Shown here piece after piece: positions 47,148-62,600 of a DNA stretch of 64,000 bases. The notes beneath the pieces were generated by a model. That model was not told where the DNA came from, made no database searches, and saw only the letters and a list, made by a program, of their open reading frames with translations. Position 1 is the first letter of the stretch. Each line of letters begins with the position of its first letter. Source of the DNA: Peptoniphilus pacaensis (GTDB taxonomy: Bacteria > Bacillota > Clostridia > Tissierellales > Peptoniphilaceae); NCBI RefSeq assembly GCF_900088125.1, contig NZ_FLQT01000003.1, forward strand, positions 991,071-1,055,070, in the 5' to 3' direction. The translations under genes and the position numbers were made by a program.

Positions 47148-47552
47148 TTGAAAAAACTCGCTGTGGGTTTGGTCTGTTGTCTCGCGCTCACCGGTTGCGG
47201 CTCTTCCGTCAGCTACAGTGCCGAAGAGCCTGTTGCCGAAGCAAAGCAGAACGAAGCGGTGGAATCGAGGCAAGAGGGCAGACATTTATTAAAAGACGGC
47301 AGCTATGTCTCCGCCGGGCGAGGCATGCAAGGCGACATTCAAGTGGAGCTGCGGGTACGAGACGGTTATATCGACCGTGTCGACGTCGTGGAACATAATG
47401 AAAACGTCGGCGTCGCGGAAGATGCCTTCGATCGTCTGGAAGAGGACGTCCTTCAAAAACAATCGGCGGATGTGGACACGATCTCCGGTGCCACGGAAGC
47501 GTCCTACGGCTTTATGGAAGCCGTGAGAAATTGTATTCGACAAGCGGAATAG
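47148..47552 (+). CDS. FMN-binding-domain lipoprotein
   Basis: This 134-residue exported lipoprotein has a signal sequence ending in the lipobox LTGC (cysteine near 17). The mature part is an FMN-binding domain: DGSYVSAGRGMQGDIQVELRV leads to the flavinylation-type motif ISGATEAS near 112, where an Apbe-like enzyme would attach FMN to the threonine. Such domains shuttle electrons outside the membrane in anaerobes. The start is TTG with AAAGGAG upstream; TATAAT at 47089-47094 is the likely -10. Eight bases separate it from the ProRS-like gene, so both are probably on one transcript. Confidence 0.83.
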   Translation: MKKLAVGLVCCLALTGCGSSVSYSAEEPVAEAKQNEAVESRQEGRHLLKDGSYVSAGRGMQGDIQVELRVRDGYIDRVDVVEHNENVGVAEDAFDRLEEDVLQKQSADVDTISGATEASYGFMEAVRNCIRQAE

Positions 47553-47560
47553 GAGGCCCT

Positions 47561-49228
47561 ATGAAACTTTCACAGTATTACTTACCGACCCTGCGGGAAG
47601 CCCCGGCAGATGCCCGTACCGAAGCCCACAAGTGGATGCTTCGCTCCGGCATGGCCCGGGAAGTAGGCGTGGGGCTCTATTCCCTGTTGCCCTACGGCCT
47701 GGCTTTGTCGGAAGCCATTGAAAAGCGCTTGGAAGATGAATTTTTCGAAGGCGGCCTCCCCGTGGCTTTGTGCGCCCTTCAACCCCGCGCCATGTGGGAG
47801 AGAAGCGGCCGCTGGGACAGCTACGGCAGCGCCATGTATAAAGTGGCGGATCGCACCAATCGCCAGGCGGTACTGGCCCCGGAATCCGAAGAAGCCTTCT
47901 TGTCCTTCGTGGACGGGGAGCTGAAAAGCTACAAGCAACTGCCCCTCTTTTTATACGAAAAAGCCAATCGCTACAGCGATGTACAAAAGCCCGCGGCGGG
48001 CCTCGCCGACGGGCGGGGCGTGCGCGTCGTAGACGGCCTGCGTTTTGACGGCGACGAAGAGGCGGCACGGGCCTTTTTCGAGGAAGCCAAGAGCCGGGCG
48101 AAAAAAATTTTAAAGGACCTGGGCATCGACTATTGCGTCGTGGACCGGGACGATTATCTCATCTATTATGCCACGGCTGAAAATTACAAAGATGCGGTGG
48201 CCCTGGACGGGGATGCGGCCTTTTTAATGGATGAAGCCCCCATTCGCTACCCGGTTCCCGAAGGACAGGAACCGAAAGAGGCGGAGGACATTCACACCCC
48301 CGATGCCCGCACCATTAAAGAATTAAGCGACATGATCGGCGTGGAACCCGCCCGCTGCACGAAAGCCGTGGATCTGCGAGTAGACGGCGAGCCCGTCTTT
48401 GTCTTCGTGCCCGGGGATCGGGATCTGAATCAAAAGAAGCTGGAAAAATACCTGGGCGTCAGCGCCGATCAAATCGACATGCTGGACGAAGAGACCATTT
48501 TGGAAATGGGCACCTTCCCCGGCTTTACCGGCCCCGTGGGCTTGGGAGAGAAGGCGCGGATCATTGTGGACCGCTCCGTCACCTTTATCGACAATATGGT
48601 GGTGGGCGCCAACAAGGAAGACTACCATAAAAAGAACGTGAACTACGGCAGGGATTTCGAAGGCGAAATCGCCGAAGACCTCTTAGACGTGCGCGAAGGG
48701 GATGTGTCCCCCTCGGGCGATCCTTATGAATTCACCACGGCCTTTGAAGTGGCGCGAATCAGAAAGCCTTCCACGGCTTTTTCCGAAGCCATGAACGTGC
48801 GCTTCTTAAACGACGAAGGCAAGGAAGCCCCCTATATTTTAGGCGGAGCCACCTGGCGCACCGGCGCCGTCCTGGCGGCCCTTTTGGAAAACCATCGTGA
48901 CGACGACGGACCGGCCTTCCCCCTTCACATTGGCCCCTTCGACGTGGCCCTTACCGTGGTCAATGTGAAAAAAGAAGAGCAAGTAGAACTGGCCGACGAG
49001 CTTTACCATGCCCTTCGTGATGCAGGCATCGGCGTCCTCTGCGACGACCGCAACGAGCGGGCAGGCGTGAAATTTAAAGACCGGGACCTTTTAGGTATCC
49101 CCCTGCAACTCACCGTAGGCAAGGAAGCCGCGGAAGGCGTCGTGGAATTTAAACGTCGCGGCGGCGATATGGAAAAACTCCCGGCGGAAGATGCCCTTCG
49201 CCGCATTATGGATCAACTCAACGAATAG
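47561..49228 (+). CDS. Prolyl-tRNA synthetase-like protein lacking the class II active-site motifs
   Basis: The 555-residue protein aligns end to end with bacterial-type ProRS: the N-terminal SQYYLPTLREAPADA, WERSGRW (79-85), SYKQLPL (123-129), an INS editing domain (about 225-380) and a C-terminal anticodon-binding domain with CDDRNERAGVKFKD. The active-site motifs are gone. GPTHEE is APESEE (106-111), motif 2 FRDExRPRFG is YSDVQKPAAG (138-147), MKDAYSF is VVDGLRF, and SHEF is TAEN. The motif 3 region GCYGIGVTR is GGATWRTGA (428-436). The INS region keeps a lysine (268) at the expected deacylase position. It is unlikely to charge tRNA; a trans-editing or tRNA-binding role is possible. Annotation pipelines would call it proS. 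The ATG follows AGGAGG. Function is inference; homology is strong. Confidence 0.85.
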   Translation: MKLSQYYLPTLREAPADARTEAHKWMLRSGMAREVGVGLYSLLPYGLALSEAIEKRLEDEFFEGGLPVALCALQPRAMWERSGRWDSYGSAMYKVADRTNRQAVLAPESEEAFLSFVDGELKSYKQLPLFLYEKANRYSDVQKPAAGLADGRGVRVVDGLRFDGDEEAARAFFEEAKSRAKKILKDLGIDYCVVDRDDYLIYYATAENYKDAVALDGDAAFLMDEAPIRYPVPEGQEPKEAEDIHTPDARTIKELSDMIGVEPARCTKAVDLRVDGEPVFVFVPGDRDLNQKKLEKYLGVSADQIDMLDEETILEMGTFPGFTGPVGLGEKARIIVDRSVTFIDNMVVGANKEDYHKKNVNYGRDFEGEIAEDLLDVREGDVSPSGDPYEFTTAFEVARIRKPSTAFSEAMNVRFLNDEGKEAPYILGGATWRTGAVLAALLENHRDDDGPAFPLHIGPFDVALTVVNVKKEEQVELADELYHALRDAGIGVLCDDRNERAGVKFKDRDLLGIPLQLTVGKEAAEGVVEFKRRGGDMEKLPAEDALRRIMDQLNE

Positions 49229-49229
49229 C

Positions 49230-49263
49230 AAAAAACCTCGCGTGGGCGGGGTTTTTCTTTTTC
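49230..49263 (+). terminator. Terminator of the ProRS-like gene
   Basis: An AAAACCTCGC/GCGGGGTTTT stem with a four-base loop ends in T-rich sequence. Confidence 0.7.
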
Positions 49264-57314: not shown

Positions 57315-57803
57315 ATGAACAAGCAAGACATTTACAACTTTTTAGACGAAAAAAACATCGCCTACGAAGTCACCGAACACGAAGCCGTCATGAATATGGA
57401 AGAGCTGAGCAAAGTGGACCTCCTCTACCCGGGCCGCGACGCCAAAAACCTCTTCGTTCGCGACGACAAAAAGAAAAACTACTACCTGATCACCGTCTTC
57501 GGCGACAAGCGCGTGGACCTGAAACAATTTAAAGAAAAACACAACACCCGCCGCCTGTCTTTCGGAAAAGATCACGATCTAAAAGAAAAACTGGATCTGG
57601 AAACCGGCGCCGTGAGCCCCTTCGGCCTCTTAAACGATGCCGAGCACGCCGTGCACTTCTATTTGGACAAGCAATTCACCAAAAACGGCGGCATCATCGG
57701 CATCCATCCCAACGACAACACCGCCACCGTGTGGCTCAAAGCCGAGGACTTAATTAAACTTATCGAAGCGGCGGGAAACCCGGTGCACGTGGTATCCATG
57801 TAA
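57315..57803 (+). CDS. Ala-tRNA(Pro) deacylase ProXp-ala (PrdX/YbaK superfamily)
   Basis: This 162-residue protein is a free-standing homologue of the ProRS editing (INS) domain. Family members hydrolyse Ala-tRNA(Pro). The catalytic-type lysine is visible at K44 in DAKNLFVRD, with KNYYLITVFGDKRVDLK (about 54-70), SFGKDHDL, GAVSPFGLLND (about 90-100) and a C-terminal GIHPNDNTATVWLK. The length is normal for ProXp-ala rather than YbaK. AAAGGAGG precedes the ATG, and TGGGTATAAA lies about 25 bases upstream. ProXp-ala is typical of species whose ProRS lacks INS, so an INS-bearing ProRS-like protein in the same window is notable. Confidence 0.9.
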   Translation: MNKQDIYNFLDEKNIAYEVTEHEAVMNMEELSKVDLLYPGRDAKNLFVRDDKKKNYYLITVFGDKRVDLKQFKEKHNTRRLSFGKDHDLKEKLDLETGAVSPFGLLNDAEHAVHFYLDKQFTKNGGIIGIHPNDNTATVWLKAEDLIKLIEAAGNPVHVVSM

Positions 57804-57910: not shown

Positions 57911-58711
57911 CTATGCTGCATTCATGCGTTCACGGTATTGCTTCGGACTTAAACCTCCTAACTTTTCTTTGATTCGATCGTTGTTGTAGTAGCGGATAAA
58001 GTGTTCGATGGCCCGCACAAGTTCTTGCCGGCTCCGGTAGACATAGCCGTCGTAGACTTCTCTTTTCAGCACACTGAAGAAGTTCTCCATGGGTGCGTTG
58101 TCGTAGCAGTTGCCTTTTCTGGACATGCTTTGAAAGATGTGGTGCTCTTCTAACATGGCTTGATAGGCGGTCATCTGGTAGCCCCAGCCACGATCGGAGT
58201 GGAAGGTGCGGCGGTAGGGGCAGCCGTTGGTTCGTTCGATGGCTTCTTCTAAGCCTCGTAGCATGGTGACGCCGTTGGGCTGATCGGAGAGGACGTAGCT
58301 GATGATTTCCAGATTGTACATGTCCATGTACGGATCGAGGTAGAGTTTCTTTGTTTGAAGTTTCCCCGCCTCATCTTCTTCGTAGTATTTAAATTCCGTG
58401 GTGTCGGTGGTAATTTTTTGGTAGGGGATGCAGGTGTTGAAGCGTCGATTGATTCGATTTTTCTTGATTTTCCCGACGACGCCTTTGTAGGAGTTGTACT
58501 TCTTGTATTTTCTGCCATAAGCACGAACTTGAAGGCCCATGACCTGAACCAGTCGTTGAACTTTCTTTTTGTTGACCGCCCATCCCCGGTTTTTCAACTC
58601 CAGATGGATCCTTCGGTAGCCATAGTCTTTGTGTTCACGCCGAATGGCCAAGATTTCATCCTTTAACGCTTGATCCTTATCTTCTTCGCTCCACTTTTTC
58701 TGCCAATACAT
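57911..58711 (-). CDS. IS3-family transposase OrfB (DDE integrase domain)
   Basis: The frame encodes the rve/DDE catalytic part of the transposase. Acidic residues are seen in ITTDTTEFKYY, FHSDRGWGYQ and DNAPMENFFSVLKRE, followed by the usual RYYNNDRIKEKLGGLSPKQYR ending. The first ATG in this frame is at 58711, but the frame stays open upstream to about 58806. It is therefore most likely made mainly as an OrfAB fusion by -1 frameshifting at the A6 run, as in related elements. OrfB alone would be 266 residues and starts with the HTH_21-like helical region. Confidence 0.92.
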   Translation of the reverse strand: MYWQKKWSEEDKDQALKDEILAIRREHKDYGYRRIHLELKNRGWAVNKKKVQRLVQVMGLQVRAYGRKYKKYNSYKGVVGKIKKNRINRRFNTCIPYQKITTDTTEFKYYEEDEAGKLQTKKLYLDPYMDMYNLEIISYVLSDQPNGVTMLRGLEEAIERTNGCPYRRTFHSDRGWGYQMTAYQAMLEEHHIFQSMSRKGNCYDNAPMENFFSVLKREVYDGYVYRSRQELVRAIEHFIRYYNNDRIKEKLGGLSPKQYRERMNAA

Positions 58712-58752
58712 AAAGGTGGATTTTGGAAAGTTGATGGCGGCAAGAATCTTTC

Positions 58753-59337
58753 TTAGTTGGAATTGTCCTCGGAGTTTGGCGACGATCCTCGCCTTTTGTT
58801 CATTTTTTCTTCCCTCACCAAACTCCTTAGCTCCTCCAAGTACATCTTTTGAATGGTGAGTATTTCATTCTCCGCTTCCAATTCTTTGATGCGGTTTTCC
58901 AATGCCTCCCGTGTGGATGCATCAAGAGGCTCCTTCTTTGTTGAAGACTTTGGTGTTTGATTGCGATCGTTATTCTTCGTCACAGGTCTCCCTCGCTTAT
59001 GTGATCGCAGACCCTCAACGCCCTCCTCTCGGTACTGTCTGCGCCAGTTGGCGATGATGGACGGATTCGTCAAACCGAGTTCAAGGGCCAATTGTTGGTA
59101 GCTGTATTCGCTCGTTTCGTAGCGTTTAATGGCTTCTAACTTAAACTCTACACTGTACGAGCGTTTATTTCTAGAGCGCATTAAGCCTTCATTGCCAAAA
59201 TGTTTGTAATTGTTGACCCAGCGTTCAATTTGCGAGACGCCGATTTGGTATTTCTTAGCCAAGATTTTATGACCTGCGTGTCCATTCAAATATTCCTCAA
59301 CAATTTTCCTCTTCAATTCATAACTGTATTTTGCCAT
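58753..59337 (-). CDS. IS3-family transposase OrfA (helix-turn-helix)
   Basis: This 194-residue protein has two helix-turn-helix modules. The first is AKYSYELKRKIVEEYLNGHAG... with IGVSQIERWVNNYK near 33-46. The second is YSVEFKLEAIKRYETSEYSYQQLALELGLTNPSIIANWRRQY (about 62-103). A basic linker and a leucine-zipper-like coiled coil (ENRIKELEAENEILTIQKMYLEEL, about 146-169) mediate multimerisation. OrfA binds the element's ends. The ATG at 59337 lies just inside the inverted repeat. The coding end contains six A at 58803-58808, where a -1 slip joins the OrfB frame. Confidence 0.9.
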   Translation of the reverse strand: MAKYSYELKRKIVEEYLNGHAGHKILAKKYQIGVSQIERWVNNYKHFGNEGLMRSRNKRSYSVEFKLEAIKRYETSEYSYQQLALELGLTNPSIIANWRRQYREEGVEGLRSHKRGRPVTKNNDRNQTPKSSTKKEPLDASTREALENRIKELEAENEILTIQKMYLEELRSLVREEKMNKRRGSSPNSEDNSN

Positions 59338-59461
59338 TAAAAGACCCCCAAAGGTTGGATTTTTTTGGTCCAACTTTTGGGGGTCAGTGCATGAAGGTGC
59401 TTTTTTTATTGAGAAAATATTTCCCTTAAAATGTGTAAATTTACGGAATTTATATAGATTT

Positions 59462-59489
59462 TTGATAGGGGGGGGTGGTACAATAAAAT
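59462..59489 (+). promoter_or_regulatory. Promoter of the giant surface protein with a G8 run in its spacer
   Basis: TTGATA (59462-59467) and TAAAAT (59484-59489) are 16 bases apart, and the spacer includes eight consecutive G (59468-59475). Gain of one G would give the optimal 17. The leader that follows (to 59610) has a first AAGGAGG at about 59548 and a second AAAGGAGG before the start codon. Confidence 0.5.
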
Positions 59490-59610
59490 CATATACCGCC
59501 TTGATAAAGTAAAAAAATGACGAAAAAAAGGCAGTGTGTTTTTTAAGGAGGGATTGCAAGGAAAAACACTCGGTAGGCGATAGCAATGAGAAACAGAAAA
59601 GGAGGAAAGC

Positions 59611-62600
59611 ATGGATTTTAAGCATGCGCGAAAGCGAGTGGCAGCAGGTGCCCTGGCGGCCATTATGGTCACAACGGCATTGCCTGTTTCCGTTTTTGCC
59701 GAAACCTATAAAGCAATCGATCCAAAAACGGGCAAGGAGACCATCCAAACCACGGATTGGAACTTAACGGAAGATAATTTAAAAGAAAAGAATTACTGGC
59801 CGCTGGCGAATGGACAATACTTGCGTGAAGTATCCAACTTGGCCGAACCATTGAAAAACCCGATGATCGGTTATGGTGGCTACTTTATTCGCCCCGATGG
59901 CAGAACCGTCATGCGACTGACCATGAGGAAGTTCGACAAGGTTGGCACCGGTGTATGGCACGTCATGCAACTGAAGCTGGAAGACAGCTTCTACGATATG
60001 GTTGACTGGAACGATATCGAAACGGGAATTTACAAAGGCGTTTCGGCAGGTTCGACTCTCGGATGGTACCATGACGACAAAACCTACGATACGATTACAC
60101 CTTTTGGTGTCACCAACATCACCAATGCAGGGACAACCAACGTAAAAGAAGTCAATATTGCCCAAAATGGAAACACAGGCGCCACGGCGGCGATGAATGA
60201 AGTGCCCATCAACTTGGTTTTGAAAAAGGGCCAAACCGTAGATAAGTTCGCCAAAGAACCTTTGGTTCAAATGCGGCTGATGACGAGCGATAGAAAGGAA
60301 ATTGCTTGTTATACGGATAAAGCAACGGGTAGGGGGAACTATTCAACTTACACATTCGCCTCTATCGTGCCTATCAAACACAATTATGAACAAAATCTCT
60401 TAAGAGAAATTCGTCATTCTGTTACGCCGGACCGGTTTTTCCGCGGCGGCGGCTCTTCAGTATACTTCAATAAAGAAAAAGGCTATATTGAAGTCAGACA
60501 CCGCTACAACAAGGTGGGTACGGCGAACAACACAATATACGGACGAGAAATAGGCTATCGGCAAGTGGTAGATAAGCGTTTCTTTGACGTCTTAGAGCCA
60601 ATTGATGCATCGGGCACCATCGCTCATATTTACTCCACAGCGAACAACGGGAATCCATCACCCGGACGTCTAGATAAAGAAGGCAAGCCGACGCCAAAAG
60701 GCTCCGTCGCTGTATTGAAAGAGAACATTAACTTCCCGAAAGGGAGCGATGTGGGCTTTATTCAAATCGCCAATAACGCATTTGATCGTACACAGGAGGC
60801 CCAAGAGGGAATAAAAACCAACCTTACCGTCAACGAGCCCTTAGCATCGTGGCTTGACGGGGTTGAATCCCTCTTAAATGGTGGTCAAAGCACCATCGTC
60901 CGCTACTATGTGAACCCGGAAAAAGTAGAAAAGCTCCTGAATGACAACGATGGCCTCCAATACTTCCCCTTCTATTCCGCTGTTATTACAGACAACAAAG
61001 AAGGACAGTATAAGTACAGCTTTAAGTTGGACAAAGATGTCACCATTCGTGGCGGCGAAAAGATTAAGATTGATTTTGCCGACAAGTTTGGTAGTGGGAT
61101 TCTTTCTGACGCGGCAGCGCCACGAAACCGTGAAATGCGCTTAGGCATTCGTGGACAAGGGACGGAAATGTTCCTGGGATCAAATTTCCTTCATGCCGGA
61201 CAAGGGCAATTCTATGAATACACCGTTCAAAAGGGTATGGACATGACCTTAAAGGCGGGCACGGAACTCTATCTATTTACCAATTATAAGGATGGCGGCG
61301 AAGCTACCCTTCACTTTAAGGATTCGCCGGAGATGTACCGGGCAAATTACGTAGAAGACCACAGCCCCATCGTTATGGACTGGCAAGGCACGTACTCTGC
61401 CGGTACCGTAACCACCACCTACCAAAAGCCTGACGTGGACGAAATTTTCGTCGGCGACACCAAGATTTCCGGTCGCACCGCTTATGAAAATGCGCAAATC
61501 GACATTAAAAAGTCCAAAGAAGACAAGGATGTTCAAAACATTACCGCCAAGCCCGGCGATACATCCAACAAGGCCGACAGCCGTATCGACGTAAAGGTCA
61601 ATGGCGTGAACCAAAAAGGTTATGAATTTGACACGGAAATGCCCGGCAAAGACAAGACCTTTACCATGCCGACCTTGGAAAGAGATATGCCGCTCTTGTT
61701 CAGCAATACCGACGTGGAAACCCTGGCGGGCGAATCCAGACCGCCGGTCGTGGAACAAGTTCAAGCGAAAGTAACATTCGATTTGAACGGCGTCACCTCC
61801 ACCGATAACAAGGCTACTATTGAAAAGATCGCTCCCCTCAGTGCCGAATACAAATACGACATTGAAACCGGAAAGGCCAATGCTAACTATAAGGCCAGCG
61901 GTTTTGAAGGCGACAATGTGAAAAAAGACGCCAAAGGCAACTTGCTCGATCACGATGGCAATCCGCTGAAAGATGATGCATTGAAATTAAGACAAATGCC
62001 CACGAAAGACGCCATTAAATTGCCCCAAGGCAAGAAATTACTCGGTTGGACCACTGTGAAATTGGCAGCCAAAGATGGAAAGAGCGTGGCTGAGCAGTTC
62101 AACGAATTGAAAGACGGCAGCAAGGTCGTCACCAAAGCGAGCGACTGGGCAAAAGCGGAAAAAGAAGCCTATGTCTTTGACGCTAACTCCCCCATCGACA
62201 CCAATCGCACAGTCTACGCTGTTTACGGGGAAGGCATTAACTTAATCCTTCACTCCAACAACACCGCCGATCCTAAGGACGAACAAACGATAACGGTGCC
62301 GATTACGATTTCCGACGTCGATAAGACAAACAAAATCATCGACGCCGTTTCCAGCGCCACCTTATCAAAGATGAAGGGGAACCTGATTATCAAGCAATTG
62401 CCCAAGGTGCCAGTCACCGGCGAGCAAGGGGAGATTGACAAGATTGCGGATACCAAGGCGAAGACCTTTAATATTCCTGAAAACTCCTTTATCGGTTGGA
62501 CCACCACACGCTACACGAACGACGATAGTTCTGGATTTGCTGCAGGGAACAACAACGAACGGATCGGTGAAATCACCCAAGGCCTTGTAGCAAAAGGAAC

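Follow-up and report, generated by a model that had tools for sequence, protein, structure and literature searches.

A full-length prolyl-tRNA synthetase relic of Aedoeadaptatus, a probable trans-editing factor for tRNA(Pro)

A prolyl-tRNA synthetase (ProRS) whose gene is intact but whose synthetic site is ruined raises the question of what it is kept for. We addressed this for a gene in a 64-kb stretch of DNA (the window; G000:C3:991071-1055070) from a 1.85-Mb genome of the genus Aedoeadaptatus (Peptoniphilaceae). The gene encodes a full-length bacterial-type (type II) ProRS with an intact frame, called the relic in the following (Table 1). A preliminary description had proposed that the protein keeps ProRS domain order and length, has lost all class II motifs and is either an editing factor made from a whole synthetase or a regulator. 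The solved bacterial ProRS 2j3l aligns with the relic from end to end (E 3e-102), in agreement with the first part of this proposal. Like 2j3l and E. coli ProS, the relic has an INS editing domain between motifs 2 and 3 and a C-terminal anticodon-binding domain; it differs from them in its destroyed synthetic site and in its score of 432.6 bits, which is below the equivalog cut-off of PRK09194 (558). Against TIGR00409 (proline--tRNA ligase) it scores 331.1, above the cut-off of 306.7, and such proteins may therefore carry the proline--tRNA ligase name in annotation.

The FMN-binding lipoprotein gene reported upstream of the relic is present; it is uninformative as to function because it also precedes canonical proS in related genera. 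Seven terminator-like sites were found in the window, compared with 4.0 expected in shuffled sequences, and the one behind the relic gene has the longest stem.

Table 1. Features of the relic gene and its surroundings (positions in the window).
Feature	Position	Strand	Remarks
Relic type II ProRS, proposed trans-editing factor	47561..49228	+	555 aa; domain search, alignment, marker residues
FMN-binding lipoprotein gene, directly upstream of relic	47148..47552	+	Same neighbour as canonical proS in related genera
Ribosome-binding site AGGAGG	47551..47556	+	4 nt 5' of ATG; overlaps upstream FMN_bind stop; read from sequence
N-terminal class II core, residues 1-224, degenerate	47561..48232	+	52% of 62 canonical invariant columns kept
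TxE ('HEE') loop APESEE	47876..47893	+	Thr lost, both Glu retained
Motif 2 loop	47975..48004	+	Arg139 to Ser, Glu141 to Val, Arg143 to Lys, Arg145 to Ala
7-residue deletion site, most of GDSGAMGGxxSHEF loop gone	48149..48163	+	Alignment
INS editing domain, residues 225-370	48233..48670	+	Pfam tRNA_edit 246-361, E 7e-21; 15/15 canonical invariant columns kept
Lys268 codon (E. coli Lys279)	48362..48364	+	Alignment
C-terminal class II core, residues 371-452, degenerate	48671..48916	+	44% of 25 invariant columns kept
Motif 3, Arg436 (E. coli Arg450) to Ala	48839..48871	+	Alignment
Anticodon-binding domain, residues 453-555	48917..49225	+	HGTP_anticodon E 2e-16; 86% of 21 invariant columns kept
Intrinsic-terminator-like stem-loop, then T run	49231..49256	+	Terminator scan
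Free-standing ProXp-ala family protein, possibly redundant Ala-tRNA(Pro) deacylase	57315..57803	+	Matches 5vxb
Presumed IS3-type transposase pair, after ProXp-ala gene	57911..59748	-	By look

Synthetic and editing sites of the relic

The relic was compared with others of its kind in an alignment that placed 18 relics and one intermediate alongside 33 canonical type II ProRS; neither the tree nor the retention tables include L088, the truncated L096 or the split L091. Nine residues served as markers of the synthetic site: T108, E110, E111, R139, E141, R143, R145, R393 and R436 in window numbering (E. coli T109, E111, E112, R140, E142, R144, R146, R407 and R450). All nine are present in each of the 33 canonical rows. 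Two of them, E110 and E111, remain in the window relic; the statement that every class II motif is lost thus holds for seven markers but not for these two. T108, E141, R143, R145, R393 and R436 are absent from all eight Aedoeadaptatus relics and R139, the motif 2 arginine, from seven of them, L010 being the exception.

The strings quoted in the preliminary description (APESEE, YSDVQKPAAG and GGATWRTGA) are present and SHEF is absent, but the way in which some of them were read needs correction. The 'HEE' loop is replaced only in part: its threonine is lost in all eight Aedoeadaptatus relics, whereas both glutamates are retained in all eight. Absence of the histidine says nothing about the relic since this residue is already alanine in 21 of the 33 canonical rows. 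Motif 2 is replaced in the window relic, but its arginine is kept by L010. The SHEF site was removed by a deletion and not by substitution alone, the GDSGAMGGxxSHEF loop being seven residues shorter in all eight relics of the genus by alignment. The reported replacement of the motif 3 arginine (A436) was confirmed. Motif residues that are present but shifted were considered and rejected: three columns separate the arginine of GGATWRTGA from the motif 3 position that follows it, and this arginine is replaced by histidine or aspartate in two of the eight Aedoeadaptatus relics.

The window relic therefore lacks the residues expected of a ligase, the motif 2 arginine and glutamate and the motif 3 arginine (S139, V141, A436). 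A ligase that is still active or has been repurposed, with changes in its active site, could be argued from the TxE glutamates and from the motif 2 arginine of L010. However, the loss of the motif 3 arginine and the motif 2 glutamate in all eight members of the genus, the deletion in the substrate loop and the lack of conservation of the arginine near motif 3 make this reading highly unlikely. An AlphaFold model of the relic, built from a nine-row alignment, is of low quality over the synthetic core (mean pLDDT 67.9), with residues 1-43 and 95-163 below 50, confident in INS and mostly confident in the anticodon-binding domain. Foldseek returned a ProRS match to this model at a TM of about 0.53; neither the model nor this match shows that the core still folds.

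The editing domain presents a very different picture. T246, K268, D337 and H356 (E. coli T257, K279, D350 and H369) are present in all 18 relics, as are G321, G324, P325, G349 and N351, and the window relic carries the complete INS-deacylase signature of Thr, Lys, Gly-Pro, Asp and His (T246, K268, G324, P325, D337 and H356). We take T257, D350 and H369 to be editing-site residues of the E. coli enzyme, and I252 and L255 to be hydrophobic positions of its INS pocket; position 252 is kept in 17 of the 18 relics and position 255 is leucine in 17. Overall, the INS columns of the relics resemble those of canonical ProRS. Lys268, singled out in the preliminary description, is the equivalent of E. 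coli K279, and the K279A enzyme is editing-defective (PMC3973320, available text). The anticodon-binding domain is as well conserved as had been described (Table 1).

Ancestral locus, selection and companion synthetase

In two genomes of the same family, G013 and G008, canonical proS shares its flanking genes with the relic: the FMN-binding gene precedes it, and the S-layer-homology gene follows it, directly in G008 and about 1.6 kb further on in G013. The tree places the Aedoeadaptatus relics among the canonical ProRS of the Peptoniphilaceae, beside those of G013, G008 and G015 (support 84/96, not starred). Given the shared locus and this placement, the window relic is the positional orthologue of ancestral proS and not a duplicate.

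A relic gene is found in all eight Aedoeadaptatus genomes. The other seven proteins are 58-94% identical to that of the window, and their frames are without stops. In a separate comparison the window relic was 94% identical to a protein of Aedoeadaptatus urinae, 77% to one of A. coli and 76% to one of Peptoniphilus rachelemmaiella. Whole-gene dN/dS for four Aedoeadaptatus pairs was 0.095, 0.086, 0.185 and 0.190; a fifth pair was saturated. Because whole-gene dS was saturated in both canonical pairs and in one pair of the genus, dN alone was compared there. INS has a lower dN than the N-terminal part of the core in all five genus pairs and than the C-terminal part in four of the five, whereas in both canonical pairs tried its dN exceeds that of either part of the core. 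The ratio of INS to core protein divergence is 0.62 (0.40-0.80; 28 pairs) for the Aedoeadaptatus relics and 0.82 (6 pairs) for the f3 relics described below, compared with 1.73 (1.28-2.54; 210 pairs) for canonical ProRS of the Peptoniphilaceae and 1.75 (21 pairs) for seven canonical rows from the rest of the order. Constraint has thus moved from the core to the editing domain. The INS and anticodon-binding domains of the relic have been kept under purifying selection. Loss of the synthetic-site motifs is what a decaying pseudogene or a sequencing error would also produce, but eight unbroken frames at these levels of identity, dN/dS of 0.09-0.19 and fixed editing residues leave this explanation hardly credible. 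The earlier view that the gene is maintained, based on its frame and ribosome-binding site, is borne out.

Each of the eight Aedoeadaptatus genomes has one type I (archaeal-type) ProRS above the TIGR00408 cut-off. Its TSE, FRWE and TSWGxSTR motifs are intact in all eight, and the domain search gave no tRNA_edit (INS) match in it in any of the eight genomes. The suggested search for another intact ProRS thus succeeded, and the idea that the window relic is the sole ProRS of its genome was rejected. At least three tRNA(Pro) genes (UGG, CGG and GGG) are present in the window genome, a minimum count because ARAGORN was run over 26 of the 30 tRNA loci and one more stretch; all have C1:G72 and A73.

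Relics in related bacteria

Relics were sought among genomes with a low best type II score in samples of 249 genomes of the order and 293 of the class, which overlap. In the order, 196 of the 249 have a type II match above the NF006625 cut-off. Motifs were read in the 33 aligned canonical rows, in G210 and in G057 alone, so mild losses such as those of G210 may be commoner. Proteins from G046, G074, G124, G129 and G247 were set aside as incomplete, split or fragmentary and were not counted. One of these, the type II ProRS of G046 (L091, G046:C206:5816-7520), is in two frames of 324 and 271 aa, which could be a sequencing error or a real break.

Ten further relics were found, in G118 (same family), G040, G057, the f3 genomes G062, G063, G065 and G066, and in G298, G317 and G360. 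The losses, which the preliminary description suggested looking for in orthologues, are shared throughout the genus, apart from the one retained motif 2 arginine, and relics also occur elsewhere in the order and class. Of these ten, all keep the four editing residues, none has the motif 2 arginine and three retain the motif 3 arginine. The relics of G317 (L131) and G360 (L132) lack some tens of residues near the TxE loop but retain the INS and anticodon-binding domains. The type II ProRS of G210 (L139, G210:C1:24077-25765), in a genome that also has type I ProRS, is above the family cut-off; E110 and R139 are the only two of the nine markers that have changed, and there are more changes in the substrate loop and motif 3. 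It appears to be at the outset of the same process of decay.

A single origin of all 18 relics was rejected by the AU test (p 1.9e-8), a test chosen after the tree was seen and exposed to long-branch pull in the model; a common origin of the Aedoeadaptatus relics and that of G118 was not rejected (p 0.054). Relic and canonical labels change five times on the best tree and three to five times in bootstraps, and the starred branches alone force two changes; the bootstrap is unsettled, and the end branches of four relic rows carry a long-branch flag. On these sequence comparisons, proofreading-only ProRS seems to have arisen several times in related bacteria.

An INS-less ProRS accompanies 17 of the 18 relics, and in 16 of the 18 genomes it is a type I enzyme above the cut-off. 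G298 is without type I ProRS and instead has a 430-aa type II ProRS without INS, with intact motifs (L130 17027-18316). INS-less type II matches like that of G298 also occur in G348, G387, G403, G451 and G508. No INS-less ProRS was found in G066 (82% complete), where about 180 bases of contig precede the relic; at that place its three f3 relatives have the type I gene. In G062, G063 and G065, the three f3 genomes with both genes on one contig, 12-13 nt separate the type I stop from the start of the relic downstream, and this interval contains a ribosome-binding site (start codons read by eye). In G040 and G057 the two genes are divergent on one contig, about 0.5 and 1.9 kb apart.

Among genomes of the order, 50 have a type I match (49 above the cut-off). 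A relic accompanies it in 14 of these and a type II ProRS above the cut-off in five; 30 are devoid of type II ProRS, and the remaining genome is G210, the early case. A relic is therefore not required beside type I ProRS, and 30 losses against 14 relics indicate that takeover ends more often in loss than in a relic. The five genomes with both types are G037, G072, G131, G170 and G196; motifs were read in G037 and G170 only, and G131 is contaminated with a type I fragment.

The f3 relics (L112-L115) have an eroded anticodon-binding domain as well, with 48-62% of invariant columns kept. Anticodon reading is consequently doubtful there unless a partner helps, and the erosion suggests that these relics depend on the adjoining type I ProRS. 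The f3 arrangement is also an argument for a non-catalytic regulator or structural partner that binds tRNA(Pro) or ProRS. HisZ, a paralogue of HisRS, is a regulatory subunit that has no editing domain and carries out no aminoacylation. The relic would resemble it as a class II synthetase relative without aminoacylation. A missing synthetic site, a retained anticodon-binding domain and, in f3, a relic gene placed directly after type I ProRS would suit such a role, and the eroded f3 domain could mean protein-protein contact. However, a regulator does not need hydrolytic residues, yet T246, K268, D337 and H356 are invariant in the relics, and INS evolves more slowly than the core. We consider this alternative quite improbable.

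Trans-editing and its alternatives

We regard it as probable that the relic is a whole synthetase turned trans-editing factor, with ancestral proS kept for proofreading; its substrate would be mischarged tRNA(Pro), probably Ala-tRNA(Pro). Type I ProRS, putatively acquired by transfer, would make all Pro-tRNA(Pro) and, having no INS, would also release mischarged tRNA(Pro). The relic would grip the mischarged tRNA by its Pro anticodon (G35, G36) via the anticodon-binding domain, and the wrong amino acid, most likely alanine, would be hydrolysed in the INS pocket. Editing in cis would thus have become editing in trans through loss of the synthetic step. The available text of Das et al. (PMC3973320) reports that INS editing requires reading of the anticodon by the anticodon-binding domain and not the acceptor stem, which fits the domains retained and the motifs lost in the relic. 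The motif 2 loop and motif 3 would be dispensable, and INS and the anticodon-binding domain would be what trans-editing needs. The scaffold may have been kept because INS relies on the anticodon-binding domain to choose its tRNA; the synthetic site was apparently lost because a second, proofreader-less enzyme took over loading. Related lineages appear to have followed the same route more than once. Against this reading stand the two TxE glutamates retained in the genus and the motif 3 arginine still present in three of the relics outside Aedoeadaptatus.

Other editors of tRNA(Pro) bear on the choice of substrate. The window genome has three free-standing tRNA_edit proteins: a YbaK-type Cys deacylase above its cut-off, a ProXp-x-like protein (best matches 1wdv and 2cx5) and ProXp-ala (Table 1), so clearance of Ala-tRNA(Pro) may be covered twice. 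A ProXp-ala-like protein was scored as present when a single query gave a full-length match with an E value of 1e-15 or lower; the more distant of these matches (28-40% identity) could belong to a different INS-like family. By this measure 11 of the 18 relic genomes have one. G005, G007, G062, G065, G066, G298 and G317 have no intact match, some of these genomes being incomplete (G065 77%, G066 82%); in G005 the gene is a 3' fragment with an in-frame stop. Ten of 12 type-I-only genomes tested have a match (not G038 and G061), as does G170 alone among the both-type genomes G037, G170 and G196. G210 gave no ProXp-ala-like match, and the search gave weak matches at most in G008, G013 and G015, which have canonical ProRS only. 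ProXp-ala may be one answer to an INS-less ProRS and the relic another; some species have both.

The presence of ProXp-ala beside most relics leaves room for a trans-editor with another substrate, be it tRNA(Pro) charged with Cys or with a proline analogue, or a different tRNA, and the choice of amino acid varies across the INS fold family in the available text of PMC11295145. On the other hand, the INS columns of the relics, including the two hydrophobic pocket positions, are like those of canonical ProRS, the window genome already has a Cys deacylase, and seven relic genomes are without an intact ProXp-ala-like match. A different substrate therefore appears unlikely.

The nearest precedent for a proofreading relic of this type is ThrRS-ed, the Ser-tRNA(Thr) hydrolase of some archaea (NCBIfam PRK14938 by description), which also edits in trans for a synthetase partner without an editing domain (PMC7373986, available text); the coexistence with an INS-less ProRS corresponds to this feature. 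In the figure of PMC11295145, ThrRS-ed has hydrolytic and anticodon-binding domains as does the relic. It differs in amino acid and editing fold and is drawn there without a synthetic domain, whereas the relic keeps the whole degenerate core with INS inside it. ProXp-ala, YbaK, ProXp-x and ProXp-ST share a homologous hydrolytic domain and act in trans on tRNA(Pro) or other tRNAs. The available text of PMC11295145 gives the free-standing family as single-domain, except for a plant form that has an extra C-terminal domain and for fusions with ProRS in some eukaryotes. The 555-residue relic does not have this format, since it brings its own tRNA-binding domain and a relic core. ProRSx of Streptomyces is likewise a second bacterial ProRS with a new role, but is active and charges a special tRNA (PMC9437257, available text), whereas the relic is the old copy in the old locus and has no synthetic site. 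ProRSx is the only ProRS entry in the table of that review of duplicated synthetases, as far as its available text goes. We found no report of an editing-only, inactive or second-copy ProRS like the relic in the literature searched, which lay mostly outside subscription journals; an editing-only ProRS made from a whole synthetase is seemingly not in print.

The reading of the relic as a whole-synthetase editing factor is thus supported, as far as sequence comparison can do so, over its regulatory alternative. Its repeated occurrence, the association with INS-less ProRS, the f3 operon and the reversed domain constraint lend it further support. It seems fairly likely to us that the relics mark a recurrent route, in which an INS-less ProRS takes over and the resident INS-bearing ProRS survives as a whole-synthetase trans-editor. 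Intermediates of this route would still be visible, from an early one in G210 and a partial one in G057 to the advanced loss of Aedoeadaptatus. Family f3 would be the extreme, its relic gene lying immediately downstream of that for the new ProRS and the two products possibly forming a two-subunit ProRS.

Free-standing editing factors are mostly known as single domains, and their origin has so far been inferred. If the proposed route is real, that origin could be followed here through a number of stages and in more than one lineage, the plausible trigger being takeover by an INS-less ProRS. A ligase name on the relics would mislead metabolic models and lists of drug targets. The relics would be a natural experiment on the dependence of INS on the remainder of ProRS, and they imply that proofreading of tRNA(Pro) may be worth keeping a 555-residue protein for its editing site.
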